DNA of 64,000 bases, taken from contig JACDUA010000005.1 of NCBI GenBank assembly GCA_013519935.1, forward strand, positions 1-64,000. Reading direction: 5' to 3'. Under the pieces are notes generated by a model, which saw nothing but the letters and a program-made list of their open reading frames with translations, was not told the DNA's origin and did no database searches. Source of the stretch: Ectothiorhodospiraceae bacterium WFHF3C12 (GTDB lineage: Bacteria > Pseudomonadota > Gammaproteobacteria > Nitrococcales > Nitrococcaceae). The translations under genes and the position numbers were made by a program. How positions within the stretch are numbered: position 1 is the stretch's first letter; every line of letters begins with the position of its first letter. Of the stretch, positions 39,875 to 62,363 are shown piece after piece.

Positions 39875-41539
<1,665 letters not shown>

Positions 41540-41614: not shown

Positions 41615-42553
41615 TCAGTAGCCGGCTGCTTCGAGTCGCTTCAGGCTGCGGCGTTTCTCCAGGAAGTCCTCGGCATCTTTCGGCTGGAGCCCGCGCAGAC
41701 GCGCGACGTACTCCCTTATTCGCGCACGGTGTGCCTCGGCATCGATCCGGTGAAGCCCCATGGCCGCCTCGCCGTACCCGACCGCCATGCCGGGGGCCAG
41801 CGCCAGTCCGCGCTCATAGGCGTCCAGGGCATGCTCGGCGCTGGCGCCATAGGTCATTCGGGCCAGCAGCCAGCCCACGCGCTCGATGATCTCCGAATGA
41901 TAGGCGCCGAGGTTGATCCAGGCCTGGGCGTGATCCGGGCGGTGTTCGAGCACCCACTCGAGAACGCGGGAGACCCGGTCAGGGATGTTCCGCTCCCGGG
42001 CCACCGCCGTGGAAACATGACGTGAATACTGGCCCAGGAGCAGGCCCTGGACCCAGTAGGCGTTGAGCCGTACCCGCGAGCGCGGCTGGGGGTTGGCCTT
42101 GACGCGGCGCACGGCGGCCTCGAGCAGAGGCAGGCGCATGTCCTCGGGCGCCAGGGTGCCCGTGTAGGCGACCCAGGCCCGCTCGGCGAGATAGTAACCA
42201 TAGGGACCCTGGGCGCGGGCCAGACGATAGGCATCGTGCAGGCGTCCGGCGTGGTAGGCACGCCAGGCATCCTGCATGGCGCGTGCTGTCGCCAGGGCGT
42301 CGTCGGGGGGTGCCCGGCCCAGGTCGGCGGCCAAGGCGCGTATGCGCTCGGCGTCCGGAAACGGCTCGGCGTCGCGTTGGTGCAGAACGGGCCAGTGCTC
42401 GCGCAGTGCCTCGCGGGTGAGCTCGAAGCGCTGGTGATGGCCGAATTTACGCCAGTTCTCGTCCAGCGCGGTTGCGCGCCTACCGTCGGGCGCGCCGGCC
42501 TGGGCCGTAGCCCAGGTCAGCAGGAGCAGCGCAAACGTGCGTCGCAGTGGCAT
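41615..42553 (-). CDS. Periplasmic TPR-like protein of the TRAP locus
   Basis: A 312-residue protein with a signal peptide (about 1-19). The body is helical with TPR-like repeats: VLEHRPDHAQAWINLGAYHSE, then HALDAYERGLALAPGMAVGYGEAA, and a C-terminal EKRRSLKRLEA. It is the last gene of the run that starts at the metal-dependent hydrolase. Its position after the TRAP permease and its repeats suggest a counterpart of the TRAP-T (TatT) periplasmic TPR component. That is inference; the lipobox of TatT is not seen. Confidence 0.65.
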   Translation of the reverse strand: MPLRRTFALLLLTWATAQAGAPDGRRATALDENWRKFGHHQRFELTREALREHWPVLHQRDAEPFPDAERIRALAADLGRAPPDDALATARAMQDAWRAYHAGRLHDAYRLARAQGPYGYYLAERAWVAYTGTLAPEDMRLPLLEAAVRRVKANPQPRSRVRLNAYWVQGLLLGQYSRHVSTAVARERNIPDRVSRVLEWVLEHRPDHAQAWINLGAYHSEIIERVGWLLARMTYGASAEHALDAYERGLALAPGMAVGYGEAAMGLHRIDAEAHRARIREYVARLRGLQPKDAEDFLEKRRSLKRLEAAGY

Positions 42554-42645
42554 TGCCTCCTCCGGGATATCCTTTGTCGCCGGCCCGGCACCGCGGGCGC
42601 GCCACGTTTCGGTCCCGGGCCCCGGTCGTACAGATCGTCGGCCGA

Positions 42646-44730
42646 TTACCCGCCGTAGAAAAGCAGCGGCATGAACGCCACAAGCAGCAGCGACGACGCC
42701 ATGACCGTTATGGGCAGCAGCAGCCGCTCATGGCGGCCCCAGAATGAATTTCGCTGGCGCGCCTCGTCGTGAGCGAGCACCAGCTCCCGTTCGCCCACCA
42801 CCTGTCGTGTCAGGAGCTGGTTGAGGGCCACGGGCGGGGTCAGATAGCCCAGCTCGAAGGCCACCAGCACCACCATCCAGAAATGCACCGGGTGGATGCC
42901 GTTGTCGTAGGCGACGCTGGCGACAGTGGCGCTGACCAGGATGATGGCGCCGTAGGGGTCCAGGAACATGCCGACGATGACCAGGACGACCACCAGGGCC
43001 CCCATGGCCATCCAGATAGAGCCGAAGTCGGCCGGGAAGGCCGCCATGATGCCGGAGCGCTCCACCACACCGCCCAGGGCAATGGACAGCGCCATGAGCA
43101 TGAGCAGCGCCCCGATATGCATGGTGGACTCCGAAGTGGACTCGCGTACCCGGTACCAGAAGCCGTCCTCGCGGCGCGGGGGCTCGCCGCCGTTTTGCCG
43201 GCGCACCGCCGAACGGTCGTAGAGCAGCATGATCAGCAGGGTCAGCGGCAGGATGATGGGCGCCGAGAACTCGTTGAAGGGCTGATCCAGCGCCACGGCG
43301 AAGAAGACCACGACCGCCAGGGCAATCACGACATAGGGGAGTAGAGGCCGCAATGCCTTTAGCGAGCCCGGGATAGCTTCCCGGGGACTGGCGAACGTCA
43401 GGGGGCTGCGCCGGGTCAACAGCGTGACGATGGCGAAGGCCGCCGAGGTGAGCAGAAACACGTACCCGCCCCAGCCGTAGAGCTGGCTGGTGGTGACCTG
43501 CCTGTTCAGCGCGGCCACCACCACGACCATAAGGCAGGGGTTGAGCACCACGCCCATGCTGCCGGACATGGCCGTGGCGGCGAATGCGAGCGGTCGGCGG
43601 GCCCCGCTCAGGCGTATCTCGTCGTAGATCACCGCGCCCACGGCCACCAGCAGAATGCCCGAGGCGCCGGTGAGTGCGGTGGGCACCGCCGCGACGAAGA
43701 CCACCACGATGGTGATCAGCTCCGGGGCCAGTTTCCAGGGGCGGGCGATGTCGAACAGCAGCGTTGCCAGACGCGTCTGCTTGATCAGCATGCCGGCCCA
43801 GACGTAGAGAGCGACGTGCAGGTACAGGTCGGCCTGCTTCACCATCTTTATGAGCTGCACGGCCAGGCCGGAGGGATAGGCCTCGGCCAGGAAGAAATAA
43901 CCGGCGGCAACCAGCGTCATCCAGGTGTACAGCGGCACCGTCAGCAGCGCATGGCCCGGCGCGCCCCCGTGGCCCGCCTGCCTGGGCACGTTGATGAGCT
44001 GATAGACGCTGATCAGCGTCAGCACCGCGAAGCCGGCGATCCAGACCGGATGCAGGGCGCTGGCCTCAGCGCCGGCCGCGCCCGCGACCTCCCGCCAGCT
44101 CACCGCGCTCCAGAGCAGGGCGGCGTTGGCGATGAGCTGCAGGGCGCTGCCGACCCGGCAGTCCAGCCGGGTCAGCGGTGAGCGGATGGCGACCTGGCCG
44201 TAAACCGTGGTGGCCATCCAGGCGCACGTGAGCACGATGAGCACCAGCAGGTACTGCTGGGCATCCAGGCCGGCAACGCTGACGGCGCCAACGGCGCCCT
44301 CCACCGCGGCATAGGCCTGCAGCGCCGGGGACTCGCGCAGCTCGCGGCTGCGCTCGAACGCGGCGTGGTCGTCGCGGCATTGCTCCCGCTGGGCGATCAG
44401 CGATTCGCGGATCCTTTCCGGGTCGGGCGGCGTTGGCGCGAGCAGGCTGTCGGCCTGACGCTCCCGGGCCTGACGCAGCTGCTGCCGCACCCGGATGTCG
44501 ATGTCCGGATCCGGGTTGCAGGCCGGCTCCTGCACGTCGTGGCGTACCAGCCCGTAGCTGTCCCAGATGGATTGCCCAACGGCCAGCATCTGCGAGTGGA
44601 CGTAGGCGCTCATGCTGAAGGCGATCGTTGCCAGCAGCAGGGTTGCCACCGGAACGGTGATGATCAGCCGTGCGTAGCCGCGCCGCGGGGCGTGGACCAG
44701 GTCGGCTCTGTCGCTCAGTATCGTGTTCAT
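42646..44730 (-). CDS. TRAP transporter large permease with fused N-terminal membrane region
   Basis: A 694-residue membrane protein. The C-terminal part (about 260-694) matches TRAP large permease (DctM) subunits: PTALTGASGILLVAVGAVIYDE, GSMGVVLNPCLMVVVVAALN, FLDPYGAIILVSATV and the final helices. DctM alone is about 430 residues; the extra N-terminal 260 hold four to five helices and an extracytoplasmic loop (about 35-140) with two Cys. That looks like a fused small subunit (DctQ). ATG 44730 is used; GTG 44742 is in frame. It follows the solute-binding protein gene. Confidence 0.85.
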   Translation of the reverse strand: MNTILSDRADLVHAPRRGYARLIITVPVATLLLATIAFSMSAYVHSQMLAVGQSIWDSYGLVRHDVQEPACNPDPDIDIRVRQQLRQARERQADSLLAPTPPDPERIRESLIAQREQCRDDHAAFERSRELRESPALQAYAAVEGAVGAVSVAGLDAQQYLLVLIVLTCAWMATTVYGQVAIRSPLTRLDCRVGSALQLIANAALLWSAVSWREVAGAAGAEASALHPVWIAGFAVLTLISVYQLINVPRQAGHGGAPGHALLTVPLYTWMTLVAAGYFFLAEAYPSGLAVQLIKMVKQADLYLHVALYVWAGMLIKQTRLATLLFDIARPWKLAPELITIVVVFVAAVPTALTGASGILLVAVGAVIYDEIRLSGARRPLAFAATAMSGSMGVVLNPCLMVVVVAALNRQVTTSQLYGWGGYVFLLTSAAFAIVTLLTRRSPLTFASPREAIPGSLKALRPLLPYVVIALAVVVFFAVALDQPFNEFSAPIILPLTLLIMLLYDRSAVRRQNGGEPPRREDGFWYRVRESTSESTMHIGALLMLMALSIALGGVVERSGIMAAFPADFGSIWMAMGALVVVLVIVGMFLDPYGAIILVSATVASVAYDNGIHPVHFWMVVLVAFELGYLTPPVALNQLLTRQVVGERELVLAHDEARQRNSFWGRHERLLLPITVMASSLLLVAFMPLLFYGG

Positions 44731-44787
44731 GGCGCGCTTCACGGGGCCGCCGGCCGTGCCGGCAGCCCGCGGCGGACTGGTGGCCGG

Positions 44788-45822
44788 TCAGCCGCCGGCC
44801 GGACCGCCCTCGGTGTCCCTGGTGCATTCGGGGTTGCCCGGGTTCTCGCGGCAGCGGATCTTCTTGAGCATGTATTGCATCTTTCGCGAGTAGACGTTGT
44901 TCTCGTATAGCGTTTGCCGGACGTCTGCGAACATGCGGTTGTACTCCCGGGTCTCCCCGGCCTCCGGTTCGTACCAGTAGTCGTCGGGAATCTGGGCCTC
45001 GGACTTCTCGATCACCCGCATGGCGTCGTCCCACAGGTGCCCGGCCACCCACTGCCGCGATTTCACGCCGAAGTCCTCGGGGAACCGTTCGTGGCGGATG
45101 TCGATCTGTGCGGAGAGAATGCCCAGGTTGTAGTCGAGGATGCCGCCGCCGTCGCCCAGGCCCTTGTAGAGCTCAAGGGCCGTGAAGGCGTAGGCGGGGG
45201 CGTAGGCCACATCCACGTTGCCGTTGTTGAACATGGCGGCGAAGGTGGAGATGCTCGCCGGCACGACGGTTGCGCCCACGTGCTGGACCATCTGCCGGGC
45301 CTGATCGTCGTAGGAGATGGTGGCGACTTTTTTGCCGGCCAGGTTCTTCCAGGAATCCAGCCAGTCGTCGTCTCGGGCGAACAGGTACACCTTGCCCATG
45401 TTGACCACGCCCGCGGTCTCGTAAGGGCCCTCGCGCATGTACCGGGCTGCCCCGGGCGAGGAAATGGCGACGATGGCGGTGCGCTGCGCCTCGTAGCTGG
45501 GGGTGGCCGCCATCATGTCGAGGCTGCCGGCGAACTTGACGATCCCGCGGTTGCGGATGCCGGTGATAACCACGGCATCGCATTCACCGGCCTGGAAATC
45601 CGCCTTGGCGGTGGACTCGTCGGTATAGGGCCGCAGCTCGAAGTCCACCCCCCATTTCCGGGCGGCGACGGCGTAATCCTTCATCATCTGGTAGACGTCG
45701 CCGTTGGAGCCGATGATGTCGAACACGCACAGGCTGCGCTGCACCGTCCCGGCAACGCTCGACAGCGCCGGCGAGAGCAGGCTCGCCGCGATCAGCGTAT
45801 TGCGAAGCAGTCTTCCTCTCAT
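44788..45822 (-). CDS. TRAP-associated solute-binding protein (DUF6091-like)
   Basis: A 344-residue periplasmic binding protein with a signal peptide (about 1-24). The fold is that of TRAP/DctP-type proteins: SLCVFDIIGSNGDVYQMMKDY, DFQAGECDAVVITGIRNRG, NLAGKKVATISYDD, and FAAMFNNGNVDVAYAPAYAF. The C-terminal 60 residues (EYNRMFADVRQTLYENNVYS) form a helical extension with two late Cys. It should deliver a ligand to the permease encoded next. GGAGG lies upstream of ATG 45822. Confidence 0.82.
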   Translation of the reverse strand: MRGRLLRNTLIAASLLSPALSSVAGTVQRSLCVFDIIGSNGDVYQMMKDYAVAARKWGVDFELRPYTDESTAKADFQAGECDAVVITGIRNRGIVKFAGSLDMMAATPSYEAQRTAIVAISSPGAARYMREGPYETAGVVNMGKVYLFARDDDWLDSWKNLAGKKVATISYDDQARQMVQHVGATVVPASISTFAAMFNNGNVDVAYAPAYAFTALELYKGLGDGGGILDYNLGILSAQIDIRHERFPEDFGVKSRQWVAGHLWDDAMRVIEKSEAQIPDDYWYEPEAGETREYNRMFADVRQTLYENNVYSRKMQYMLKKIRCRENPGNPECTRDTEGGPAGG

Positions 45823-45883
45823 GACCTGAAGCCTCCGTGTACGGGCGGACGGGCCCAGTCCCGTCCCATCGTGGTCGCGTCGA

Positions 45884-46897
45884 TCAAAGCAGCCCTTCGG
45901 TATCCGGCTGTGCCGGCGTCTCGCCGGGGAAACGACCGAGCGCGCCCACCGGAGTGCGTTTGCCGGACTCGCGGGTCCATAGCTGGTCGGAGAAGTGCCG
46001 CACCTCCATGGTCGCCAGCCGGTCCACCAGGACGTAGCGTTCCGGTGCACGGTCGCCGCCGATTCTTGCCGTGTGTCGAACGGCGTTCTTCAGTTCCGGC
46101 GTATTACCGGCGTTGTCGGCGCCATTGACGTAGAGCGCCAGGGCCAGGCGCATACCCGCGTCATCGGCCAGACGGACGCTGCGCCGGTAGGTGGCCCATA
46201 TGTCCCGGTCGTCGGGCCGGGAACCGGGAACCAGTGTCCAGACCGTCGCCCGGACCGCCCCGGGCGCGCCCCACCAGCGTTCATTGTCCAGGCAGCGTGA
46301 GGCGTCGGCGGCCCTGGGGGCGATATCCCGCGGTATGCCCACCTGAAGACCGGACCGGGCATCGCTCTGCATGGCCTGAAGGCCCACCACCAGGCCGATG
46401 AGGTAGGTCATCTGATCGGCTTCGGCGTCCAGATCGGGGCAGTCGCCGTCCAGCGGCCCGTAGGCGCTCGTCAGATGGCGGAAGGCCGAGTAGCGCCGCT
46501 CGGCGGCGATGGCGTGCCAGCGCTTCTCGGCGATGCGGGCGTCGGCGGCCTCGTTGACGTCGCCGGCGTTGCTGGCGCGCAGATACCGCAGGTTCTCGTC
46601 GGCTGCCCGGAATGCCGCGCAGTAACCGGCCAGCAGGTCGGTGTAGAACATGACGTAGTCGGGTGTGTGCATGACCCGGCCGAACGAGGCCAGGAACTGG
46701 TTCATGCCGGTGCCCGTGCCGCAGGTGGCCATATCCGTGTCGCGGGTGCTCTGGACATGAGGCACGACGTTGTCCTCGGCGTAGTCGGCGAGCAGGGTGC
46801 CCGTGGTGGAATAGACCGGTGCGCAGCCGCCGAGCAGCAGCGCCGCCGCGGCCAGCAGAACCGGACCGAGCTGACGTACCGGCGAGTGGCTGACCAT
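45884..46897 (-). CDS. Lipoprotein of unknown function in the TRAP locus
   Basis: A 337-residue protein with lipobox LLGGC (about Cys25). It is mostly helical with several Cys, including DMATCGTGTGMNQFLASF and GDCPDLDAEADQMTYLIGLV. No family is recognised. Its place between the Ig-like lipoprotein and the solute-binding protein, with short gaps on both sides, suggests it belongs to the same envelope machine. ATG 46897 has GGAGG about 11 bases upstream; ATG 46918 is an alternative. Confidence 0.7.
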   Translation of the reverse strand: MVSHSPVRQLGPVLLAAAALLLGGCAPVYSTTGTLLADYAEDNVVPHVQSTRDTDMATCGTGTGMNQFLASFGRVMHTPDYVMFYTDLLAGYCAAFRAADENLRYLRASNAGDVNEAADARIAEKRWHAIAAERRYSAFRHLTSAYGPLDGDCPDLDAEADQMTYLIGLVVGLQAMQSDARSGLQVGIPRDIAPRAADASRCLDNERWWGAPGAVRATVWTLVPGSRPDDRDIWATYRRSVRLADDAGMRLALALYVNGADNAGNTPELKNAVRHTARIGGDRAPERYVLVDRLATMEVRHFSDQLWTRESGKRTPVGALGRFPGETPAQPDTEGLL

Positions 46898-47049
46898 GTC
46901 CACGCTGTCCTCCTGCATGTGTTGTTGTCGGTTCCGCGCCGCGGTGTTCGTGCCGGGGCGGGTAAAGACAGGGCCGTCCCTGGCCCGACCCGTCATGAGC
47001 GTTCACGGCCGTGCCCCGTGGCACCGCTATTCGGTGCCGCTGCGCCCGG

Positions 47050-50000
47050 TCACTGCTTGATTGCGGGCTGGGTGAATACCAGCGAGGTACCGCCCGCCGG
47101 GATCTGCAGGTCGATCTCGATGTCATCGTTGGCGCCGAGCGAGACATCGATGGGCACGTCCGCGTCATTGCGCAGGCGCACCTGCATGCGACCGTCCCGG
47201 GTGAATGTCACCGGGCCGCGCAGCGTCATGCTGAGCTCGTAGCTGTGGAGGTTGTGCGGCAGCGACAACAGCGGCTCGAGATAGGGCGCGTCCAGATACA
47301 GCTCGGCCTGCACCTCGAACGTGGGTACGCCGTCGTCGTTCTCGTATATCCAGCCGGCCATGGGTTGCGGCCGCCCTTCGGGGCCTTCCGCGTAGCGCAC
47401 GCGCATGATCTGTGGTCCCGAGGGCGTGAGCACGGGGTCGGGCAGGATGGACACGTCCGCGTAGACGTCCAGGTTGCTGGTGTAGATGATATTCGGATGC
47501 ACGGCGACGCGGACCGCCTCCCGCCCCGTCCCTGGGTGGGTGCCCGTGCCGAGAACCTCGGAGTTGAGCCCCGCGGTCAGCCAGACGAACTGCCGGGCGG
47601 GGCAGCTGGCGGGCGATCCGTCATCGTTGAATCCACAGCCCGTGTTGGCCCCTTCTGCCAGCCCACCGGCGCCAGTGGCGATGATGTTGCTGGCATTTTC
47701 CTCCACCACGTATTCCCCCGCTTCCATCGCCGGCAGAGCCTCGCAGGATTCGCGCGTGCAGGTGCTCTCGTCATCGGAGACCGTGCGGCCGTCATGGACG
47801 AAGTTGGCATTGACATCCACCGTGGGCAGGTTGCGGAAGGTCTGCAGCACGCTGTCCGTGGACGGGGCGCCATGGAAATAGAGGGTCATGTCCGGCCCGC
47901 CGTGGGTCGGCTCCGGCGCAAAATCCGCGGACTGGGCCAGCATACGGGTCTGCAGCGGGTGACCGGCCGCGGAGCAGATGGCGTCGGAACCGCCGCAGTC
48001 GCCGGCCGCCGCGGAGCCACCGCCATTGGAGCCCAGCACGTAGCGGTACAGACGCCCCTCGGCCCATGCCGTTTCCGGGTGGAAGCGCAGCACGCGCTTG
48101 CCCACCTCCAGACGGCCCGGCACCTCGGACCAGGTGCCGCTGCCATCGGGTTGAGTGTTCGCCTCCACCACGAAGCTGCCACCCAGCTCGATGCTGGCGG
48201 GGTCCATGGTCTGGGAAAACTGCACTTCGATGGCGCGGTTGGCGGGAAGCGTTGTCACGGGCAGGTGATCGTCGCTGTTCTGTCCGCCGGCGCAGCGGCC
48301 GTGATCGCCGTTGGCGATGTCCCGGCCGATGGTCACGCAGGGGTATCCCGGATAGGTCGTCGTTGCCAGCGGTGCGCGGGCCGGGCCGTCCACGTGGTGG
48401 GGTATCCTGAAGCTCAGCGCGTAGCTCTGATCCAGGGGGTTGCCGGCCAGGTCGGTAACGTCCGCCGTGAGATTCACCGTGTAGGTCTGGCCGAACTCCA
48501 GGTCGGGCTGAGGATCCAGCACCAGCGTGGCGCCGTTCACGCGCACCGCGAAATCGCCGCCGCCGTTGAGCAGCACCGACTCCCCGGCGACCACGCTTTG
48601 AGGCTCCACCGGCTCGCTGAGATTGACGATGATCGGGTCGCCCGGCCGCATTTCACCCGCGCGGGAGTGGCCAGCGCCGTCCTCTCCGGGCAGCCAGGAC
48701 TGGACCGAGGGCAGCCTGGTGTCCGGGGCTGGCGCCGGCGCCGCCTCCTGGTCCGGGAAGGAGGCCATCTGGAAGGAGATCAGCCCCCGGCCGTATTCCT
48801 GGCCCAGAATTCTGGGCTCCACCATGCCCACGGCGTCGATCACCAGTCGTCCGTCCCGGACAATGCCGCTGCCGACCAGCTCCACGTGGAGGAGGTCCTG
48901 GCTGAGGCCGCCATTGGCCCTGGGGTTGCTGGTGGTCATGGCGATGTCCATGAACAGCCGCACCTGCTTCGGGGCGGTCTTGTCGTCCGAATAGGGATTG
49001 GGCAGGAGATAGCCCACGGCGTCGCTGAGGAACGTGACGCTCACCTCCCCGGAGTCGTAGCCCGTCGGGGCCGCGCCGGCGATGAGCACTTCCACGGAAG
49101 CCGCGTTGAGTAGCGTGCCCCTGGGGACCCGAAAGGGCGTGACTTCCGGGTAGTTGGGCGGGAAGGCCAGCTCCGCGGCCAGCACGCCCTGTTGTTGAAC
49201 GCTGGTGGATTGCCCCAGCAGCATGGCCTGAAGCGGCACGCAGTTCACCGGCATGCCGGTCAGCGGCGAGAGGGTGTCCCCCGTGGTATCCGGCCCGCAG
49301 CGCCGGCCGGGCCGGGGGTTGGAGACATCCGCCTGCTGTATCAGGACCTCCCGTGGCCGGGAGTCCCCGGGCGTGAAGGTGAAGCCATCGTAGCCGGCGG
49401 GCTCCAGGTTGTTGCCGAGCGTGCTCCGCAGGCTGTCGTCCAGCTGCAGGGTGTACTCGTCACCGGGGCTCAGTGGCTGTTCGGGGTCCAGGGTCAGGTA
49501 CGGGCCGCTCGCCAGCACGTGGGCGGCGACCAGCTCCCCGGCGTCATCGACCAGGGCGATGCTGCCGCCGTCAGGCACGTCGTTGACCACGGCGTAGCGC
49601 AGACTGGTCCTGTCGATGGGCTGGGTGAACTGAAGCCGCAGCGAGGAGAAGTCCATCAGCGGCAGCAAGCTGCCGTCCGGAATCAACCGCGCCACCTGAA
49701 AGGCCGGGGCGCTGGTCAGGGTGTCCGTGGCGCCTTCCTTCCCCGCGCGCGTGGTGAACTGCAGTCCGCCTTCGGGCGTCTGAACCGCGCCGTACTCGGT
49801 GCTCTGCCGGCCGATATCCACGACGTAGCGGGTGTTCGGTGCCAGCGGCGCGTCCGGTGAGATCAGTATGCCGCGACCGCCATCGAAGGTTTTCGGCGTG
49901 AAGGCCACGGCCTGTCCGCTCGCGGTCTCCAGTGTCACTTCGGAGACCGGATCGGGCGTGGTCAGGGCGTGGGAGAAGCGCAGGGCCACGGGTGCGGAGG

Positions 50001-50154
50001 CCGGTACCTCGGTCTGACCATCGCGGGGATAGGTGCTGACCAGGGCGGAGTCCTTCCAGCTGGAGAAGTCGACGCCGTCCGCGCCGTCCGAGTTGCCGCC
50101 GCCGCAGCCGATCAGCAGCAGCGTGGCCGCCAGTGTTGCCGCAATCTGACGCAT
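47050..50154 (-). CDS. Large Ig-like lipoprotein (SbsA/Big_5-type repeats)
   Basis: A 1034-residue lipoprotein (lipobox LLIGC, Cys17). It contains several Ig-like repeats of the SbsA/Big_5 type, recognised by VSTYPRDGQTEVPASAPVAL, TRYVVDIG, VNLSEPVEPQSV, YTVNLTADVTDLAGNPL and LPANRAIEVQFSQTMDPASI. A C-terminal beta-rich portion ends at 1034. It follows the FadL-like gene by 10 bases. Likely surface or periplasmic; it may support the outer-membrane channel or bind substrate. Confidence 0.85.
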   Translation of the reverse strand: MRQIAATLAATLLLIGCGGGNSDGADGVDFSSWKDSALVSTYPRDGQTEVPASAPVALRFSHALTTPDPVSEVTLETASGQAVAFTPKTFDGGRGILISPDAPLAPNTRYVVDIGRQSTEYGAVQTPEGGLQFTTRAGKEGATDTLTSAPAFQVARLIPDGSLLPLMDFSSLRLQFTQPIDRTSLRYAVVNDVPDGGSIALVDDAGELVAAHVLASGPYLTLDPEQPLSPGDEYTLQLDDSLRSTLGNNLEPAGYDGFTFTPGDSRPREVLIQQADVSNPRPGRRCGPDTTGDTLSPLTGMPVNCVPLQAMLLGQSTSVQQQGVLAAELAFPPNYPEVTPFRVPRGTLLNAASVEVLIAGAAPTGYDSGEVSVTFLSDAVGYLLPNPYSDDKTAPKQVRLFMDIAMTTSNPRANGGLSQDLLHVELVGSGIVRDGRLVIDAVGMVEPRILGQEYGRGLISFQMASFPDQEAAPAPAPDTRLPSVQSWLPGEDGAGHSRAGEMRPGDPIIVNLSEPVEPQSVVAGESVLLNGGGDFAVRVNGATLVLDPQPDLEFGQTYTVNLTADVTDLAGNPLDQSYALSFRIPHHVDGPARAPLATTTYPGYPCVTIGRDIANGDHGRCAGGQNSDDHLPVTTLPANRAIEVQFSQTMDPASIELGGSFVVEANTQPDGSGTWSEVPGRLEVGKRVLRFHPETAWAEGRLYRYVLGSNGGGSAAAGDCGGSDAICSAAGHPLQTRMLAQSADFAPEPTHGGPDMTLYFHGAPSTDSVLQTFRNLPTVDVNANFVHDGRTVSDDESTCTRESCEALPAMEAGEYVVEENASNIIATGAGGLAEGANTGCGFNDDGSPASCPARQFVWLTAGLNSEVLGTGTHPGTGREAVRVAVHPNIIYTSNLDVYADVSILPDPVLTPSGPQIMRVRYAEGPEGRPQPMAGWIYENDDGVPTFEVQAELYLDAPYLEPLLSLPHNLHSYELSMTLRGPVTFTRDGRMQVRLRNDADVPIDVSLGANDDIEIDLQIPAGGTSLVFTQPAIKQ

Positions 50155-50164
50155 GTCCGACCTC

Positions 50165-51505
50165 TTAGAATTTCAGGGTGATCGAGCCGGTCAGGACGTG
50201 CACGTCCCCCGACGCGGTCACCGTTTCGTAGGGGTTGGCGGGCGCGTCTTCCGAGGCCATCTGGAAGTCCCGCTCCTGGAGCTTGTGGTACTGGTAGGCC
50301 AGGTCCACGCGCAGCGGGTGCGCCAGAATCCAGAAATCCGGGAACTCCGACGACAGACCGAGACCGGCGACCCAGCGGTCGGTATCCAGGTAGTTGACGT
50401 CGGGTGACTGGGTGGTTTCCAGGGGCGATTCCCGGTAGGACAGCCCGCCGCGCAGGGACAGGTAACTGCCGATGCGGTACTCGATGCCGAGGCGGGGGAT
50501 GACGATGTCCTTGAACTCCCACGCCACCTGGTCCTTGATCGTGTCGTCCTCGAAGTCGTTCTCCAGGTCGCTCCAGTTCTGCTGCTCAAGGGTCAGTCCG
50601 ACACCGAGACTGCGGCCGCGCCAGGCAATGCCGGCCGTGTAGATGGACGGCTGGTACTGGTCCAGCGTCGAAATGGAGAACGTGAGCCCTGGCGGGGGAA
50701 TGGTGCCGGGAATGGTGGCGTTCGCGTCGACGTTGGTCTCGTAGCTGGATTTCTGGCGGTAGGCCAGGGCGGTCTGCAGGCCCTGGGCCCAGCAGCGTTC
50801 GCCGGGGCACAGCGTCGCGCCCCAGTCCACATTGACGCTGGCGATACCCTTGATGTCCGGCTCGGTCTCCACCGTCAGGGATTCCTGCTCCGTGTTTCCG
50901 GCGAGGTCGGACTCCGTCTCCAGCTCCGCGTTGTTCTTCAGGGTGATCAAAGTGCCGGCACCCAGACTGATCCCGCGCCAGACGTAGGTGCCCAGGCCGA
51001 TGTTCAGGAACAGCGACTTGCGGCCGTACTCGAAGTACTGCCCCGTCTGCGAGGTCTCGGAGTTGAAGGACAGCACCTCCTGGCTGTATTCCTCGATGCC
51101 CACCGTGACGCCCAGGTTGATGGGGTGTTCCATGGTGGTCAGGCCGGCGAGATCGGTCTTGAAGCCGAGCACCGTGTGCTCGGAGTTACCCTCCTGTAGG
51201 ACGTCGTCGCTGCGATCGGGTGGATTGCTGCCGCCCTGGCTCTGCGCTTTGAGGTTGTAGTCCGCGTTCAGCAGGCCGGCGCTGAACTCCCCGCGTGGGT
51301 CGTGTACCAGATAGGCGGGGTTGTAGTACGCCGCCGATGCCTGGTCGCTGAACATCGACAGTCCCTGAGTCGTGGCCATGTCCGCTGGCAGTAGCCCGTA
51401 AGTGGTTGCAATGTTGCCCATGGCCGCCGAGGCGGTCGCTGCCGGGGCGAGCAACGCGCCGGCCAGGGCGAGACGGTTCATGACGGGTAGGGGTCCGGTC
51501 TTCAT
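50165..51505 (-). CDS. FadL/OmpP1/TodX family outer-membrane transport protein
   Basis: A 446-residue beta-barrel protein. A signal peptide ends near ATASA, and the mature N terminus carries the FadL hatch-like segment GLSMFSDQASAAYYNPAYL. Alternating strands follow and the last residue is Phe, as in barrels handled by BAM. FadL-family channels take up long-chain fatty acids, aromatic hydrocarbons or other hydrophobic compounds. It is followed by the Ig-like lipoprotein and TRAP genes. Confidence 0.9.
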   Translation of the reverse strand: MKTGPLPVMNRLALAGALLAPAATASAAMGNIATTYGLLPADMATTQGLSMFSDQASAAYYNPAYLVHDPRGEFSAGLLNADYNLKAQSQGGSNPPDRSDDVLQEGNSEHTVLGFKTDLAGLTTMEHPINLGVTVGIEEYSQEVLSFNSETSQTGQYFEYGRKSLFLNIGLGTYVWRGISLGAGTLITLKNNAELETESDLAGNTEQESLTVETEPDIKGIASVNVDWGATLCPGERCWAQGLQTALAYRQKSSYETNVDANATIPGTIPPPGLTFSISTLDQYQPSIYTAGIAWRGRSLGVGLTLEQQNWSDLENDFEDDTIKDQVAWEFKDIVIPRLGIEYRIGSYLSLRGGLSYRESPLETTQSPDVNYLDTDRWVAGLGLSSEFPDFWILAHPLRVDLAYQYHKLQERDFQMASEDAPANPYETVTASGDVHVLTGSITLKF

Positions 51506-51640
51506 TATCGGTCTCCTCCTGTGCAGGGCTTACGGCGAGGGCCGGGGATCGGAGCCGCACGCCGCGCCTGCGTTTCTTATGGTTGGAACGGGCCTTGACG
51601 CCCCAGTGTTGCTGATGCGGGCGCGCTGGTGCTTGTCGCG

Positions 51641-52486
51641 TCAGGCTGGCGGTTGCCCCGTCGAGGCGTAATGGGATTTCCATTGCTCGACGAAGTCGCG
51701 GTTGTCGCGCTCCCAGGGGTGGAAACCCGGCCGGTAATAGGCCAGGTACTGGCCGAGAACCCTTCGCAACGGCCCCGGGCTGACGAACAGGTATCGCGGC
51801 ACGCTGAGCCAGCCCTTAAGGTCGCCAGCCACCCCCGCGCCGCGGGCCAGGTGGACGTGATTGCGGATGACCTCGAACCAGAAATGGATGGAGACGTGCA
51901 GCATCAGGAGTACCCGGCGCACGTACGCGCCCGCCCCGGTGCCGACCTGTTCCCGGTACACGTCGAAGGCCACGGCCTTGTGCTCGGTCTCCTCGATGGC
52001 ATGCCAGCGCCATAGCGACGACATCTTCGGGTCGCTGCCTTCGAGGGTGCGACGATCAGAGAGTAACGAGTCGGCCATGATGGCCGTGAAGTGCTCAAGG
52101 GCGATGGTGATGGCCAGCTGGCTCTCGGGCGAGAACAGCTTGCGGCCCAGCCGCAGTCGCTGCTTCACACCCGCTTCCAGTTTCTCCACCGGCAGGCCGG
52201 CGTCCCGCAAGGCCTTGTTATAGGCAATGTGCTCGCGGCTGTGCATCGCCTCCTGGCCGATGAAGCCCCGGACCTGCTCCTGTAGCCCCGGTGAGCTGAT
52301 GCGATCCCGGAAGTGGCGCACGCTGTCCATGAAGAACTTCTCGCCTTCGGGGAAGAGAATGGACAGGGCGTTGTAGAACTGCGTGACATGGGGCCCGGCC
52401 CCGTGCCAGCGGTTCATGTCGCAGTCGTCCAGATCGAAATGCAGATCCCGGCGCTCGATGGCGTCGGCGGTGCCGCTCGCGGACAT
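51641..52486 (-). CDS. Metal-dependent hydrolase family protein (PF10118-like, ferritin-like)
   Basis: A 281-residue helical protein of the family annotated 'metal-dependent hydrolase'. ExxH motifs are visible (EAMHSREH and EETEHK), with further Glu/His in GEKFFMDSVRHF and ALEHFTAIMAD, the pattern of ferritin-like di-metal carboxylate sites. The true reaction of this family is unclear; an oxidase or oxygenase role is equally possible. GGAGGAG precedes ATG 52486. It heads the seven-gene minus-strand run and has a strong promoter upstream. Confidence 0.8.
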   Translation of the reverse strand: MSASGTADAIERRDLHFDLDDCDMNRWHGAGPHVTQFYNALSILFPEGEKFFMDSVRHFRDRISSPGLQEQVRGFIGQEAMHSREHIAYNKALRDAGLPVEKLEAGVKQRLRLGRKLFSPESQLAITIALEHFTAIMADSLLSDRRTLEGSDPKMSSLWRWHAIEETEHKAVAFDVYREQVGTGAGAYVRRVLLMLHVSIHFWFEVIRNHVHLARGAGVAGDLKGWLSVPRYLFVSPGPLRRVLGQYLAYYRPGFHPWERDNRDFVEQWKSHYASTGQPPA

Positions 52487-52620
52487 GACGCTCCTCCGTA
52501 TCCGACGTCCGGGCCGGTAAGTCGTCCACTCACCAGCGCCTTGTTCCATGGCCTGCGGCTCTGCCGGCCGCTTGATCATTATGCGGAAAGATGAATTTTC
52601 CGAAAAGATCGATTGTCGAA

Positions 52621-52658
52621 ATTTAGAATCTGGTCTATAGGTTGTCAAGTGACAGCCA
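52621..52658 (-). promoter_or_regulatory. Sigma70-like promoter with overlapping inverted repeat, metal-hydrolase/FadL-TRAP run
   Basis: On the minus strand: perfect -35 TTGACA (52649-52644), a 17-base spacer, and -10 TAAATT (52626-52621). The -35 lies inside GGTTGTCA-AG-TGACAGCC (52641-52658), an inverted repeat with one mismatch, well placed for a TetR-type repressor. The gap 52490-52936 also holds AAATAC-CT-GTATTT at 52857-52870. Confidence 0.6.
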
Positions 52659-52936: not shown

Positions 52937-53632
52937 GTGAGTGAGAAGGCAACGACCACGCGACGATATAGGGGCATGACGCCGGAACAGCTTCGTGCGG
53001 AACGCCGCGAGCGTCTCCTCGAGGCGGCCCTGACGCTCTTTACGGAGCGGGGCTACGCCAACACGACCATCGAGGCGCTGTGTTCCAGCGCCCGGGTGAC
53101 CACGCGTCATTTCTACGAACAGTTCGATGGTCGCGAGGCCCTGCTCCGCGACCTGCTGGAGACCATAGTCGACGGGACTCTCGCCGCCGCCTGGGAAGCG
53201 CTGATGAACGAGGACCGGGACATGACGGGGCGGGTGGGGGATGCCATCCGGGCGGTCATGATGTTTCTGTTGTCCGATTCGCGGCGCGGCCAGGTCGTCT
53301 GTGTCGAGTCGGTCGGCGTCAGCCGGGAGCTGGAGGCCCGCCGGCGGGTCATGATCCACGCCTTCGCGGAGCTCATCGAGCAGTTCGGTGGTTATCTGGC
53401 CGGCACCGGTCTGCTGCCCCTGCGCAACTACCACCTGCCGGCGGTGGCTCTGGTGGGCGCGACCCTGGAGCTCATCCAGGAGTGGCTCACTGGCGGCACG
53501 GAGATGGACGCCGAAGGCATGGCGCAGGAGGCCGTGCTGTTCTTCCGTGCGCTGATCATCGGCGCCCGGCGCTACGACGAGGAACTGGGCGGCCATGCCG
53601 CGGAGGCCGCTCAGGACGGGGAGGGGGAGTAG
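52937..53632 (+). CDS. TetR family regulator, divergent from the FadL-TRAP run
   Basis: A 231-residue TetR protein. The N-terminal helix-turn-helix (LLEAALTLFTERGYANTTIEALCSSARVTTRHFYEQF, residues about 28-64, quoted by its ends LLEAAL and HFYEQF) is typical; the C-terminal domain would bind a ligand. GTG start at 52937 with AAAGGG upstream. Its divergent position makes it the likely repressor of the minus-strand genes starting at 52486. Confidence 0.88.
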   Translation: MSEKATTTRRYRGMTPEQLRAERRERLLEAALTLFTERGYANTTIEALCSSARVTTRHFYEQFDGREALLRDLLETIVDGTLAAAWEALMNEDRDMTGRVGDAIRAVMMFLLSDSRRGQVVCVESVGVSRELEARRRVMIHAFAELIEQFGGYLAGTGLLPLRNYHLPAVALVGATLELIQEWLTGGTEMDAEGMAQEAVLFFRALIIGARRYDEELGGHAAEAAQDGEGE

Positions 53633-53712: not shown

Positions 53713-54465
53713 TCAGCCGGCTTCTGCGTCCGCGGCGATCGGCGGCTCGCCGCCGTCCCAAAAAGCTTCTTCCTCGCGCCGTGGCTGCCACCCCAGATGC
53801 GTGAGCGTTGCAGCCCCCACCAGCATCATCAGTACCTGCCCGTGCAGGCGCCGGCATATGGTCTCGCGCAATGCCGGCTGCTCGATGTAGTCCAGGGAAA
53901 CGTGAAAGGTCTGGCGAATCACGAACCGGGCGATCTCCCGGAGCGAACGCGGCTCCAACGTGCGCTGCATTGCCGGAATCTGCGCCATATCCTCCGCCAG
54001 GTCGTCGGCGAGTAGCCCCATGGCCTGTCGAATGGCGCCGCGCAAAGTCGCGGAAGGACCGTTGAGCTCGCGTCCACCGATGACGAATGCCTCCGGGTGT
54101 TGGCAGGCAAACTCGAAGTAACGCCGCAGCGACAGGTCAATCACCCGGCTCGCCAGGCCGATCCGTTCCTCGACGCCTTCCGGAATCCGGGCCGGGTCCG
54201 CGCCAAGCGCCTCCTCGGTGGCCTCGGCCCGCAGCCTCCGAAGCGGCTCGCGCAGCGTGTCCTGCACCTGATCCAGCACGGCCAGGCCCAGCTCGTCATG
54301 GTCGCGGAAATGCCGGTAGAAGGTATTGGGGTTGAGCCCCGCCTCCCGGGCCAGCTCGCGGATGCCGACAGCGTGGAGACTGCGCGTTCGCCCTGACAGG
54401 CGCAGAGCGGCTCTCATGAGCCGATCCCGGCCGGACACCCGGGTCGCGGTGTTGGCGATTGCCAT
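53713..54465 (-). CDS. TetR family regulator, divergent from the monooxygenase
   Basis: A 250-residue TetR-type repressor. The DNA-binding segment is GIRELAREAGLNPNTFYRHF (about 34-53). The long C-terminal domain resembles FabR-type regulators, which respond to acyl chains, but that is only suggestive. It is convergent with the other TetR gene and divergent from the monooxygenase, with a dyad-rich gap of 176 bases between. Confidence 0.88.
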   Translation of the reverse strand: MAIANTATRVSGRDRLMRAALRLSGRTRSLHAVGIRELAREAGLNPNTFYRHFRDHDELGLAVLDQVQDTLREPLRRLRAEATEEALGADPARIPEGVEERIGLASRVIDLSLRRYFEFACQHPEAFVIGGRELNGPSATLRGAIRQAMGLLADDLAEDMAQIPAMQRTLEPRSLREIARFVIRQTFHVSLDYIEQPALRETICRRLHGQVLMMLVGAATLTHLGWQPRREEEAFWDGGEPPIAADAEAG

Positions 54466-54561: not shown

Positions 54562-54641
54562 AACATGACCGCGAGTGGGCCCGGACGTGTCTCGGCGGCA
54601 CGGCGTTGCGGCCCGCAACTCTCGCAGGAGGGCGGGAAGAA

Positions 54642-56189
54642 ATGGCAGCAGCGGCGGAAACTGTGAACGGCGATGTCATGCATCATGATGTGGCCATAAT
54701 CGGCACGGGCTTCGCCGGTCTGGGGGCGGCGATCAGGCTCAAGCGACGCGGCGAAGACGATTTCCTGGTTTTCGACCGTGAGGCGGGTGTCGGCGGTACC
54801 TGGCGGGTCAACCACTACCCGGGCTGCGCCTGTGACGTGCAGTCCCATCTCTACTCGTTTTCCTTCGAGCCCAATCCCGACTGGACGCGGATGTTCGCCC
54901 CGCAGCAGGAGATCCTGGACTATCTCCGGCATTGCGCCGGGAAATACGCGCTGGCGCCGCATCTTCGGCTGAGCACCGAAATCACCCGGATGCGCTGGGA
55001 CGAGCAGAAAGGCCTATGGCTATTCGAGGATGACCGCGGTCAGCGCTACAGCGCGCGGGTGGTCATTGCCGGCATGGGCGGGTTGTCCCGGCCCCACTAC
55101 CCGGACATACCGGGCCTGGAGCGTTTTACCGGTCACATGTTCCATTCCCAGCAGTGGGACCACGACTATGAGCTGTCTGGTAAACGCGTCGCGGTAGTGG
55201 GGACGGGGGCGTCGGCCATCCAGTTCATACCGCAGATACAGCCCCGGGTCGCCCGGCTGGACGTCTTTCAACGCACGCCGCAATGGATCCTGCCGCGGCC
55301 CGATGGCCCGATCCCGGAAGCGCGGCGCCGCCGGTTCCGGCGATTTCCCCTGCTGCGGTGGCTCGAGCGCAAGCGCATCTACTGGATGCTGGAGACACGC
55401 GTGCTGGGATTCGCGTACAAGCCCCGGTTGATGCGCCTGGTCGCACGCCTGGCCCTCAGGCACATGAAGCGCCAGGTGCACGACCCGTCACTGCGGCGCA
55501 AGCTGACGCCCGATTACACCATCGGCTGCAAGCGGGTGCTGATGTCCAACGATTTCTATCCGGCGCTGACCCGGCCCAATGTGGAACTCATTACGGACGG
55601 TATCGAGCGGATCACGCCCCGGGGCATCGTCACGCATGCCGGCCAGGAGCGCGAAGTGGATGCCATCATCTTCGCCACCGGCTTTCACGCCACGGACCCG
55701 GTGCCGGCCGGCATGATCGAAGGCCGCCGGGGCGACGATCTCGCCACGCTCTGGCGCGACGGACCGCAGGCCTACAAGGGCACCACCGTCGCCGGCTTTC
55801 CCAACCTGTTCATCATGACCGGGCCGAACACCGGTCTTGGTCACTCCTCCATGGTTTACATGATCGAATCCCAGCTGGACTACGTCATGGATGCCCTGGA
55901 TTACATGCGCCGGGAAGACATCCCGGCGCTGGATGTCGACCCGGGCGCCCAGCTTCGCTATAACGAGCGGCTGCATCGGCGCCTTGGCGGTACCGTGTGG
56001 AACTCCGGCGGCTGCTCCAGCTGGTATCTGCATCCCGTGACCGGTCGTAATCCGGTCATCTGGCCGGGTTTCACGTGGCAGTTCCGGCGCATGACGCGGC
56101 ACTTCGATCCCGCGGCGTATCGATTGGCTGGCCCCGCCGCCGGCCAGTCCGTCACGGCAACCGCGGACGCGGCCGGCAGTGCCGCCTGA
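54642..56189 (+). CDS. Flavin-containing Baeyer-Villiger-type monooxygenase
   Basis: A 515-residue NADPH-dependent FAD monooxygenase. FAD motif GTGFAGLG (about 20-27), the Baeyer-Villiger fingerprint FTGHMFHSQQWD (162-173) and NADP motif GTGASAIQ are in order, with ATGFHATDP near the C terminus. It should insert oxygen next to a carbonyl of a ketone, giving an ester or lactone. ATG 54642 has AGGAGGG upstream; ATG 54678 is an alternative. The short-chain dehydrogenase follows by 25 bases, a common pairing of alcohol oxidation with Baeyer-Villiger oxidation. Confidence 0.92.
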   Translation: MAAAAETVNGDVMHHDVAIIGTGFAGLGAAIRLKRRGEDDFLVFDREAGVGGTWRVNHYPGCACDVQSHLYSFSFEPNPDWTRMFAPQQEILDYLRHCAGKYALAPHLRLSTEITRMRWDEQKGLWLFEDDRGQRYSARVVIAGMGGLSRPHYPDIPGLERFTGHMFHSQQWDHDYELSGKRVAVVGTGASAIQFIPQIQPRVARLDVFQRTPQWILPRPDGPIPEARRRRFRRFPLLRWLERKRIYWMLETRVLGFAYKPRLMRLVARLALRHMKRQVHDPSLRRKLTPDYTIGCKRVLMSNDFYPALTRPNVELITDGIERITPRGIVTHAGQEREVDAIIFATGFHATDPVPAGMIEGRRGDDLATLWRDGPQAYKGTTVAGFPNLFIMTGPNTGLGHSSMVYMIESQLDYVMDALDYMRREDIPALDVDPGAQLRYNERLHRRLGGTVWNSGGCSSWYLHPVTGRNPVIWPGFTWQFRRMTRHFDPAAYRLAGPAAGQSVTATADAAGSAA

Positions 56190-56214
56190 CCGCGACCGGA
56201 ACAGGGGGCGAACG

Positions 56215-57090
56215 ATGAATGACAAGGACAACCGCGTGGCGGCCGTCACCGGCGCGGCATCGGGCATCGGGCGCGCCCTGGCCCTGGAGCTTGCCGGCCG
56301 GGGCGTTGGCCTGGCAGTGGCGGACATCAACGAGCGCGGCGTGGAGGAAACCGCCGCCCTGGCGCGCCAGCAGGGCGTGACGGCTACCGCGACGGTTCTG
56401 GACGTCAGCGAGCGCGCGGCCGTGATCGACTGGGCGGAGGGCGTCATGACTGAGTTCGGCGCCGTGGACCTGTTGTTCAACAACGCCGGCGTGGCCCAGA
56501 GCGGCAGCGTCGCCGGGAACGGGTTCGACGACTACGAATGGGTCATGGGCATCAACTTCTGGGGCGTGGTCAACGGCACCAAGGCTTTTCTCCCCCTGAT
56601 GCGAGAAGCCGGCCGCGGGCACATCGTCAACATCGCCAGCATCTTCGGCGTTTTCGCGCAGCCGGGGATGAGCACCTACAACGCTTCCAAGTTCGCCGTG
56701 CGGGGTTTCACGGAGTCGTTGCGCCAGGAACTGGACATATTGGGCGGCGCCATTTCCGCCACCTGTGTCATTCCAGGTGGCATCAGGACAGGCATCGCGC
56801 ATTCCGCGCGTATGTCGCCGAGCCTGGCGGAGATCCATGGCGGGCCGGTGGACACGGACCAGATCCGGGATGACTTTCTGAACAGGCTCGCACGGACCAC
56901 GCCGGAGCAGGCGGTGCGGACCATCCTCTCCGGCGTCGAGCGCAACGCGCGCCGGGTGCTGGTCGGGGCGGACGCGAAGCTCTTGGACCTGATGCAGCGG
57001 CTGATGCCCAGCGCCTATCAGCGGCTGGTCACCGCCGCCATGCGCCGGGAGGCCGCGCGGGCCCGTCGGGCGCGGCAGGCGCCGGGGTGA
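56215..57090 (+). CDS. Short-chain dehydrogenase/reductase
   Basis: A 291-residue classical SDR. The cofactor motif TGAASGIG is at 12-19, NNAG at 89-92, and the catalytic Ser142, Tyr155 and Lys159 (YNASK) are in place. The Asp in VADIN after the second strand suggests NAD preference. Cotranscribed with the monooxygenase; it could oxidise a secondary alcohol to the ketone used by that enzyme. AGGGGG lies upstream of ATG 56215. Confidence 0.9.
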   Translation: MNDKDNRVAAVTGAASGIGRALALELAGRGVGLAVADINERGVEETAALARQQGVTATATVLDVSERAAVIDWAEGVMTEFGAVDLLFNNAGVAQSGSVAGNGFDDYEWVMGINFWGVVNGTKAFLPLMREAGRGHIVNIASIFGVFAQPGMSTYNASKFAVRGFTESLRQELDILGGAISATCVIPGGIRTGIAHSARMSPSLAEIHGGPVDTDQIRDDFLNRLARTTPEQAVRTILSGVERNARRVLVGADAKLLDLMQRLMPSAYQRLVTAAMRREAARARRARQAPG

Positions 57091-58446: not shown

Positions 58447-58938
58447 CTAACCCCGTCTGCGCGCGCGGCCGTCTGCCGCCTTGCCCCCGCTGTCGGCCGC
58501 TCCGGCCAGATAGGAAGCGCTTGGGTCCACCAGTACGTGGCCGTGCATGGCGCGACGGCCCAGAAGCATGCGGAAACCCATGGTATCGCGGTTGGTTAGC
58601 GTCAGATCTATGGGCCACTGCTGGTTGGCGATCCGCACTGGGGTGCGGATGACGATACGCTTCTCCCTGTGACCTGTCGAGCTGGTCACATAACGCTCGT
58701 CATGGATGTCCGCCTGGCACGCGATGGTCACCGCCGTGCTCCGCTGCTCGGGGTGGATTTCGAACGCCACCCGCCGGCGGCCGTCCTCCGTGAATCGCCG
58801 GATATGGATGGCATGGATTGCCGAGGTTGCCGCACCGGTATCGATCTTGGCCTTGATGCCCGCGATCTCCAGGGCCGGCAGGTCCACCCATTCCCGCCAT
58901 CCGATCCAGACCCGGGGCAGGGTCTTGCGCTTGCTCAT
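58447..58938 (-). CDS. rimB: RimB/ATP-dependent zinc protease family (retropepsin-like)
   Basis: A 163-residue protein of PF05618. The motif [12 protein letters not shown] places Asp33-Thr34-Gly35-Ala36 as in retropepsins, and [14 protein letters not shown] is the conserved C-terminal hairpin. Members are encoded beside RimK and have been linked to the trimming of S6 glutamate tails, despite the old name 'zinc protease'. ATG 58938 is chosen; upstream in-frame extension is not conserved-looking. Confidence 0.88.
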
Positions 58939-59322
58939 GCATGCACCCGCGTTGACCAACAGAGGCGACGGCGCGCCGTCGGCCCGTCTACCATCGCTTT
59001 TGCTCGCCGGCAGTTCAAGCATGCTCCCAGGTGGTTGCCGCGGCGTTCGGGCGGCGGCGGGATCCGGCATGCAAGAAAGCGCCAAATCCGCTATCCTAGG
59101 GCGCTTCTCGATTCCGGCGCACCCGGCGCCACCTTAGCAGCGCGGTGTGTCTGTCAAACGCTACCCGGCCCCGCGGGGTCGGCGGTACTGCTCCGGATTC
59201 CAGCGCAGGGCGGTCGGGTCGCTGCTCGGCAGAACGGCGCCCCGCCGCGGCGCGAGCGCTATTGCGCGGCGCCCGTCCCCCTGCGGGCCAGTCGAATTCA
59301 TCGAAACCTAAGAGGCAGCTAC

Positions 59323-60582
59323 ATGTTCTCCAGCAATATGAATATTGCCGATTTCGATCCCGATCTCATGGATGCCATCCGCAAGGAGGAGCGACGGCAG
59401 GAAGAGCACATCGAGCTGATCGCCTCCGAGAACTATGCCAGCCCGCGGGTCATGGAGGCCCAGGGCAGCGCGCTGACGAACAAGTACGCCGAGGGCTACC
59501 CCGGCAAGCGTTACTACGGCGGCTGCGAGTTCGTGGACATCGCCGAGGAGCTGGCCATCGAGCGGGCCAAGCAGCTTTTCGGTGCCGATTATGCCAACGT
59601 CCAGCCGCATTCCGGCTCCCAGGCCAACGCGGCGGTCTACCTGGCGCTGGCGAAGCCGGGTGACACGCTGCTGGGCATGAGCCTGGACCATGGCGGTCAT
59701 CTCACCCACGGCGCCAAGCCGAACTTCTCCGGCAAGATCTTTAACGCCGTGCAGTACGGCATCCACGCCGACACGGGCGAGATCGACTACGAACAGGTGG
59801 AGCGGCTGGCCGATGAGCACAAGCCCAAGCTGATCATCGCCGGCTTTTCCGCGTACTCCCGCGTGGTGGACTGGGCGCGGTTCCGGGAGATTGCCGACAA
59901 GGTGGGTGCCTATCTGATCGTGGACATGGCCCATATCGCCGGCCTGGTGGCGGCGGGGGTCTACCCGAGCCCCATTCCTTACGCCGATGTGGTCACCACC
60001 ACCACGCACAAGACCCTGCGAGGCCCGCGCGGCGGCCTGATCCTGGCGCGCTCGAATCCGGAGATCGAGAAGAAGCTGCAGTCGCTGGTCTTCCCGGGCA
60101 CCCAGGGCGGACCGCTTATGCATGTCATCGCCGCCAAGGCGGTGGCCTTCAAGGAAGCGCTGGCGCCGGAGTTCAAGGACTACCAGCAGCAGGTCGTAGA
60201 CAACGCCCGGGCCATGGCGCAGACGGTGATGGATCGCGGCTACAACGTGGTCTCGAAGGGTACGGACGATCATCTGTTTCTCATCGACCTGATCGACAAG
60301 GGCATCACCGGCAAGGACGCGGATGCGGCCCTGGGGCGTGCCAACATCACGGTGAACAAGAACACCGTGCCCAACGATCCCCAGTCGCCCTTCGTGACCA
60401 GCGGGCTGCGCATCGGTACGCCGGCCATCACCACCCGCGGATTCGGGGAGGCCGAATCCCGTGAGCTGGCCAACTGGATCTGCGACGTGCTGGACGACAT
60501 CGGCAACGAGCAGGCCGTGGCCGCGGTGAAGGAAAAGGTCCTGGATATCTGCGGCCGCTTCCCGGTCTACGAGAACAAGTAG
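59323..60582 (+). CDS. glyA: Serine hydroxymethyltransferase
   Basis: A 419-residue PLP enzyme that converts serine and THF to glycine and methylene-THF. Conserved segments: [21 protein letters not shown], the PLP lysine in [14 protein letters not shown], and [25 protein letters not shown] precedes ATG 59323. The upstream region (58939-59322) is GC-rich with no gene or riboswitch that I could recognise. nrdR follows after about 90 bases. Confidence 0.97.
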
Positions 60583-60671
60583 GCAGCCGTTTCCCCCCGT
60601 TCCGCGGCCGTCCATGGCCCGCGGGGCGGGGTGCATCAAAGCTGGGCGGTGCGCCGCCGGAGTGAATCGCT

Positions 60672-61196: not shown

Positions 61197-61221
61197 CTGC
61201 CGGCCGGATCGCGGCGAGAGC

Positions 61222-62337: not shown

Positions 62338-62363
62338 GGGCATAGCGCGAGGGGACCGGCGGC

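Follow-up and report, generated by a model that had tools for sequence, protein, structure and literature searches.

The gene row and its transport modules

We analysed a 64,000-nucleotide (nt) stretch from Ectothiorhodospiraceae bacterium WFHF3C12 (contig JACDUA010000005.1, positions 1–64,000; hereafter the window), focusing on a row of seven genes that may form an import system for alkanes or similar hydrophobic compounds. The row occupies 41615–52558 of the minus strand. Read in the direction of transcription, it encodes a ferritin-like putative enzyme (Metal_hydrol), an outer-membrane channel (AupA), a long lipoprotein (AupB), a helical lipoprotein (T), a solute-binding protein (P) and a permease (QM) of the tripartite ATP-independent periplasmic (TRAP) type, and an exported tetratricopeptide repeat (TPR)-like protein. 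The gaps run from 10 to 135 nt (Metal_hydrol–aupA 135, aupA–aupB 10, aupB–T 131, T–P 61, P–QM 45, QM–TPR 92), and the seven genes may be co-transcribed. An earlier note, made from the sequence alone, had described this same-strand row and a divergent TetR gene next to it. Its layout held, as did its ferritin-like "metal-dependent hydrolase", its TRAP-type solute-binding protein and its oversized TRAP permease; it named the families of the FadL-type porin and the immunoglobulin (Ig)-like lipoprotein correctly but missed that they are AupAB, and it recognized T as a lipoprotein but overlooked its kinship, calling it unknown.

The aupA-like gene (50165–51505, minus strand) encodes a FadL-family channel (PF03349, 49 bits) that scores 531 bits against the NCBIfam AupA model NF041571. 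This does not reach the equivalog cut-off of 840 bits, a cut-off that several aupA–aupB pairs of Marinobacter, Mangrovitalea and Alcanivoracaceae likewise fall under. The protein is 37–52% identical to aupA products of Marinobacter, Alcanivoracaceae, Mangrovitalea and other loci. After 10 nt it is followed by a full-length AupB homologue (47050–50154, minus strand; 1034 residues), a lipoprotein with the lipobox LIGC and Big_5 Ig-like domains (139 bits), which aligns over nearly its full length (31–43% identity, 401–768 bits) with products of the genes directly behind aupA in Marinobacter, Mangrovitalea, Halospina, Thalassolituus and one Alcanivoracaceae genome. By sequence, we assign the two genes as an aupA–aupB pair. 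Binding between AupA and AupB and their role in growth on alkanes are known only for Marinobacter: there AupA lies in the outer membrane and AupB in the inner membrane, they bind to one another, growth on micellar hexadecane requires them, and aup mutants show alkane phenotypes (PMC5989066). In Marinobacter TT1, the AupA and AupB homologues were 4.9- and 4.6-fold up on hexadecane (PMC7822026). Every AupB relative that we examined (L139–L150, L136) opens with a lipobox-like signal in which Gly mostly follows the Cys. Under the sorting rule of E. coli such a signal predicts an outer-membrane protein, yet AupB was located chiefly in the inner membrane. Separately, five Marinobacter loci (L139–L142, L144) carry behind aupB a conserved 764-residue gene, whose product starts MENGTHYRTCHLCEAMCGVAIE and resembles a molybdopterin oxidoreductase.

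Behind aupB lies the gene for T (45884–46918, minus strand, with an alternative start near 46897). We expected a TatT protein here from the gene layout before the structure of T was modelled. The AlphaFold (AF2) model (mean predicted confidence, pLDDT, 92) is all-helical and matched Tp0956 best (3u64, Z 17.3; 4di3, Z 17.2), followed by the structure 8g52 (Z 15.4) of a TPR-protein-associated TRAP transporter (TPAT) and by BstC (7t1s, Z 12.5), with the top unrelated chain at Z 10.7. As Z scores below about 13 are common among helical proteins, we place weight on the Tp0956 and 8g52 matches. Foldseek also ranked Tp0956 first, at E 0.1. No match was found to the Pfam TatT profile (PF16811) or to any Pfam family at E up to 10, and a search of the sequences of solved structures with the T alignment yielded nothing useful. 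On sequence grounds we therefore rejected a place for T in the TatT Pfam family, and given the Foldseek value and the missing profile match we name the protein only "TatT-like": its predicted fold is that of the T component of TPATs.

P (44788–45822, minus strand) belongs to the AdeT1_2 family (PF19582, 192 bits), and its AF2 model (pLDDT 92.5) adopts the fold of TRAP solute-binding proteins (best Z 26.8, to IseP, 8t9t). In ordinary DctP proteins Arg-147 grips the carboxylate of the ligand, and Tp0957 has Ala there together with a hydrophobic pocket (PMC4646407). In an alignment to 4n91, which is a weak TRAP match (E 0.16 in the search of solved-structure sequences with the P alignment) with the site in a short stretch of low similarity, Ala167 of P takes the Arg-147 position. 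Among 30 relatives of P this column holds Ala in 28, Thr in one and Gly in one. A TRAP importer for carboxylates, considered as a candidate, is less likely given the Ala at this position.

QM (42646–44742, minus strand; 698 residues from an uncertain GTG start) has a DctM domain (PF06808, 65.9 bits against a cut-off of 23.8), scores 76.5 bits against TIGR00786 (cut-off 268), and carries about 260 extra N-terminal residues. Three of its 13 predicted membrane segments lie in this extension. A Pfam DctQ match, which would mark a small Q subunit, separate or fused, was absent. We assign it by sequence to a distinct DctM-like subfamily. Counting matches at E 1e-100 or better (the remaining matches being ordinary DctM proteins), the subfamily occurred in 5/274 genomes of a sample of the class, exactly the five that have an AdeT1_2-family P.

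Occurrence of the modules in other genomes

We collected 84 QM loci, most of them from genome contigs and mostly from Marinobacter, Salinisphaera, Thalassolituus, Oleiphilus and Oleispira, several of which are known to use oil or lipids. In 70 of these loci, T and P are encoded within 4 kb of QM on one strand, so T, P and the permease together form a conserved general core, to which the link with aupAB is a special addition. An aupB gene adjacent to T-P-QM was seen in the window and in one genome of the same order but another family (G277), which has the arrangement aupB-ompW-T-T-P-QM-GMC oxidoreductase, spread over two contigs whose ends overlap exactly by 141 nt. Across the order (54 genomes), both QM-bearing genomes have aupB, which is present in three genomes in all; if genomes were independent, this would occur by chance with a probability of about 0.002, and as the genomes are related and the counts small, such odds are rough.

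Looser linkages were found further afield. In the Pseudomonadales genome that also holds locus L108, the contig L150 carries aupA-aupB-alpha/beta hydrolase-flavin monooxygenase (FMO)-short-chain dehydrogenase (SDR)-Metal_hydrol-P, a row truncated by the contig end. The 187-kb plasmid pHP-187 of Marinobacter adhaerens holds relatives of all seven genes: aupA, aupB, Metal_hydrol and the TPR homologue within 13 kb, and T-P-QM about 37 kb off. In an Alcanivoracaceae genome with three AupA genes, T-P-QM sits beside an AlkB-type monooxygenase and a 2Fe-2S reductase (L036). AupA itself was found in only 1/274 genomes of the class sample, and that genome is QM-bearing.

AlkB relatives were present in 2/54 genomes of the order, namely the window's own (499 bits to the solved enzyme) and G284, where a compact alkane cluster (L135, 1986–13269) encodes an AraC regulator, a TPR protein, an AlkB-type–ferredoxin reductase fusion, OmpW, an aupB homologue and an aldehyde dehydrogenase. 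The AlkB part of this fusion is 51% identical to the L036 AlkB. At E 1e-20, no AlkB was found in G277 and no AupA in G277, G284 or G060; a search of the order around G210, which covered 4 genomes, likewise found no AupA. The aupB homologues of G277, G284 and G060 are followed instead by genes of the OmpW family, the Pfam family to which AlkL belongs.

Other genes of the row and its control region

Metal_hydrol (51641–52558, minus strand) matches PF10118 with 287 bits and has homologues in the aupAB clusters of L150 (136 bits) and pHP-187 (186 bits). At the other end of the row, the exported TPR-like protein (41615–42553, minus strand) had no Pfam match above the cut-off; its homologues in G284 (36%, 142 bits) and pHP-187 (27%, 59 bits) both contain TPR motifs. 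An ettA-like ABC-F ATPase gene (39875–41539) follows just 75 nt on, which leaves the unit without a clear 3′ boundary. This gene and glyA-nrdR-ribD (58669–63026) bracket the region.

Upstream of the row, where the earlier note had seen a perfect −35 inside a dyad, a sigma-70-like promoter site lies on the minus strand (52620–52654 with the overlapping dyad): TTGACA (52648) and TAAATT (52620), separated by 17 nt, hold 10/12 consensus bases. The 13.5 kb searched contain three sites of this quality, slightly more than chance would give (1.4 ± 1.2 expected), so the match by itself is weak evidence; the promoter call rests on the position of the site, which suits a Metal_hydrol start at 52558 or 52576. 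The site is overlapped by a dyad seen by eye (TGTCA-2 nt-TGACA, at about 52643–52654), a possible TetR operator that is absent from the list of a repeat finder requiring longer seeds. The divergent TetR gene (52937–53632, plus strand; TetR_N, 47.5 bits), whose closest NCBIfam relative is FasR at a score far under the FasR cut-off, likely controls the row, and its product probably represses it until an inducer arrives.

A second TetR gene (53713–54465, minus strand; closest to FabR, 84 bits against a cut-off of 151) is divergent from a gene for a monooxygenase resembling FMO or Baeyer–Villiger monooxygenase (BVMO) enzymes (54606–56189, plus strand; PF00743), which overlaps an SDR gene (56179–57090, plus strand; PF00106). 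Homologues of both stand between aupAB and Metal_hydrol in L150 (FMO 26%, 157 bits; SDR 42%, 238 bits). The two genes are possibly a linked catabolic arm of the system; seen alongside L150, they resemble a pathway of subterminal oxidation, from ketone to ester, that is linked to aupAB.

A candidate import route and related systems

We are confident of the identity of the modules. Our favoured reading, held with modest confidence, is that AupAB and the TPAT-like proteins form one joint route that imports alkanes or similar hydrophobic compounds across the envelope. AupA would pass the hydrophobic molecule through the outer membrane and AupB, the long lipoprotein, would receive it; the TatT-like T and the arginine-less P would carry it across the periplasm; and QM would move it into the inner membrane or cytoplasm at the expense of a proton or sodium gradient. 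Oxidation could follow by the AlkB encoded elsewhere in the genome or by the neighbouring FMO/BVMO and dehydrogenase. The physical hand-over, the substrate, the direction of transport and its energy coupling are our suggestions. A stricter version, in which unmodified alkane is handed from AupA through AupB, T and P to the TRAP permease by one dedicated machine, we regard as doubtful. The single outer-to-inner-membrane machine of the earlier note thus fits better than before, now that aupAB, a TatT-like T and an arginine-less P are recognized, but as a single cassette the seven genes are not widely conserved.

TPATs are not known to have been assigned a cargo since their structures were solved in 2012. 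The genetic link between the proven alkane-uptake pair aupAB and a TPAT-like system makes this cargo, and the passage of alkanes across the periplasm past the outer-membrane channel, testable in culturable, harmless marine bacteria. Were unmodified alkane indeed what the TRAP half carries, no earlier TRAP transporter would be known for a hydrocarbon lacking a carboxylate, and TPATs would gain a defined cargo. The published alkane proteomes of Thalassolituus and Oleispira make no mention of TRAP proteins, and in a literature search that reached few subscription journals we found no report tying aupAB to TPATs.

Several observations weigh against a joint route. Conservation of the whole cassette, which the earlier note had suggested searching for, was not borne out: the gene-neighbourhood search gave only partial blocks elsewhere, and the full seven-gene block was seen in the window alone. 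None of the flanks of the 84 first-searched QM loci held aupAB. Most T-P-QM loci lie away from aupAB and other hydrocarbon genes, among mostly housekeeping neighbours (pyrimidine genes and pckA in Marinobacter, a lytic transglycosylase in Salinisphaera). Among 24 QM-bearing genomes, AupA was found in 10 and not found in 14, and the QM subfamily also occurs in Acinetobacter; with the location of most T-P-QM loci, this implies a wider role for the TRAP half. Within the row, the aupB–T gap contains a weak terminator-like stem (46986–46971; seven such sites were found against 5.2 ± 2.6 expected). Finally, alkanes partition into membranes by themselves, so that a permease step is not necessarily required. 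A terminator is also predicted behind aupB in Marinobacter (PMC5989066).

The alternative that survives best, though we consider it unlikely, is that AupAB imports alkane while T-P-QM moves some other hydrophobic compound (a fatty acid, alcohol, ketone, wax ester or membrane lipid), for example a periplasmic oxidation product, so that the two share regulation and not a path. It would explain why T-P-QM is widespread and located in the core of Marinobacter, Salinisphaera and Acinetobacter genomes without adjoining aupAB, and the adjoining FMO/BVMO and SDR could yield ketones and esters. The T-fold protein BstC, moreover, binds sterols (PMC10942540). However, the missing carboxylate-binding Arg argues against a simple fatty-acid ligand, and aupB or AlkB-type genes are linked to T-P-QM in other genomes.

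It is less probable still that aupAB and T-P-QM are separate units brought together by chance rearrangement. The absence of aupAB from the first-searched flanks is what this would predict, and the corresponding chromosomal site of an Alcanivoracaceae genome (L146) carries aupAB without T-P-QM, with the same ettA-glyA-nrdR-ribD set on one side and other genes on the opposite side. Against it stand the separate linkages in G277, in the Pseudomonadales contig L150 (to the P gene) and on one plasmid, together with the co-occurrence of QM and aupB in the order, subject to the relatedness of its genomes. Export or detoxification of solvents or drugs, suggested by the name of the AdeT1_2 family and the annotation of AdeT as an efflux pump part in Acinetobacter, where AdeT1 is reported to be an efflux membrane fusion protein (PMC7687900), is scarcely credible given the TRAP solute-binding fold of P, its co-occurrence with a DctM-type permease in all five P-bearing genomes of the class sample, and the import direction of published TRAP transporters with a binding protein (PMC4646407).

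The components of the proposed joint AupAB–TPAT-like route have known counterparts. The AupA–AupB pair of Marinobacter hydrocarbonoclasticus SP17 (PMC5989066) has the same FadL-type AupA, a gap of about 10 nt and an Ig-like lipoprotein of roughly 1000 residues, with AlkB in the genome. It is, however, a two-gene operon, whereas the window pair has Metal_hydrol before it and T-P-QM-TPR behind it, and an AupA that scores below the curated cut-off. Acinetobacter AdeT1 and AdeT2 share PF19582 with P. Acinetobacter baumannii has QM and a T homologue (37%, annotated as hypothetical) close together, with a rhombosortase gene between them (L176, 6867–10979). AdeT1 has been described as an efflux protein, whereas the predicted fold of P and its permease partner speak for a TRAP importer. 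The AdeT proteins, although classed with efflux components, are probably the TRAP binding proteins of the T-P-QM system. Methylococcus BstC (7t1s; PMC10942540) has a T-type fold with a hydrophobic cavity, but it is partnered by BstA and BstB, transport proteins of different kinds (BstB being a phosphonate-type binding protein), and not by a TRAP P and QM.

The TRAP half resembles the TPAT of the Tp0956/Tp0957 type, which also combines a TatT-like helical lipoprotein, a TRAP-fold P with Ala in place of Arg-147, and a permease; the window system differs in the AdeT1_2 family of its P, in a T without a TatT Pfam match and in its link to aupAB. Tp0956–Tp0957 (4di3) is reportedly the only case in which a T–P complex has been shown. 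For T. pallidum, a path from a FadL channel to TP0956/57/58 has been proposed for hydrophobic nutrients (PMC8407342), with the same combination of a FadL channel, TRAP T and P proteins and a dedicated permease. The earlier note knew of no description of such a set as a unit; a FadL–TRAP route had already been suggested, but as a hypothesis for separate loci, whereas the window genes stand in one row that includes aupB and has a TetR gene beside it. What is new is the joining of these known parts in one cassette.

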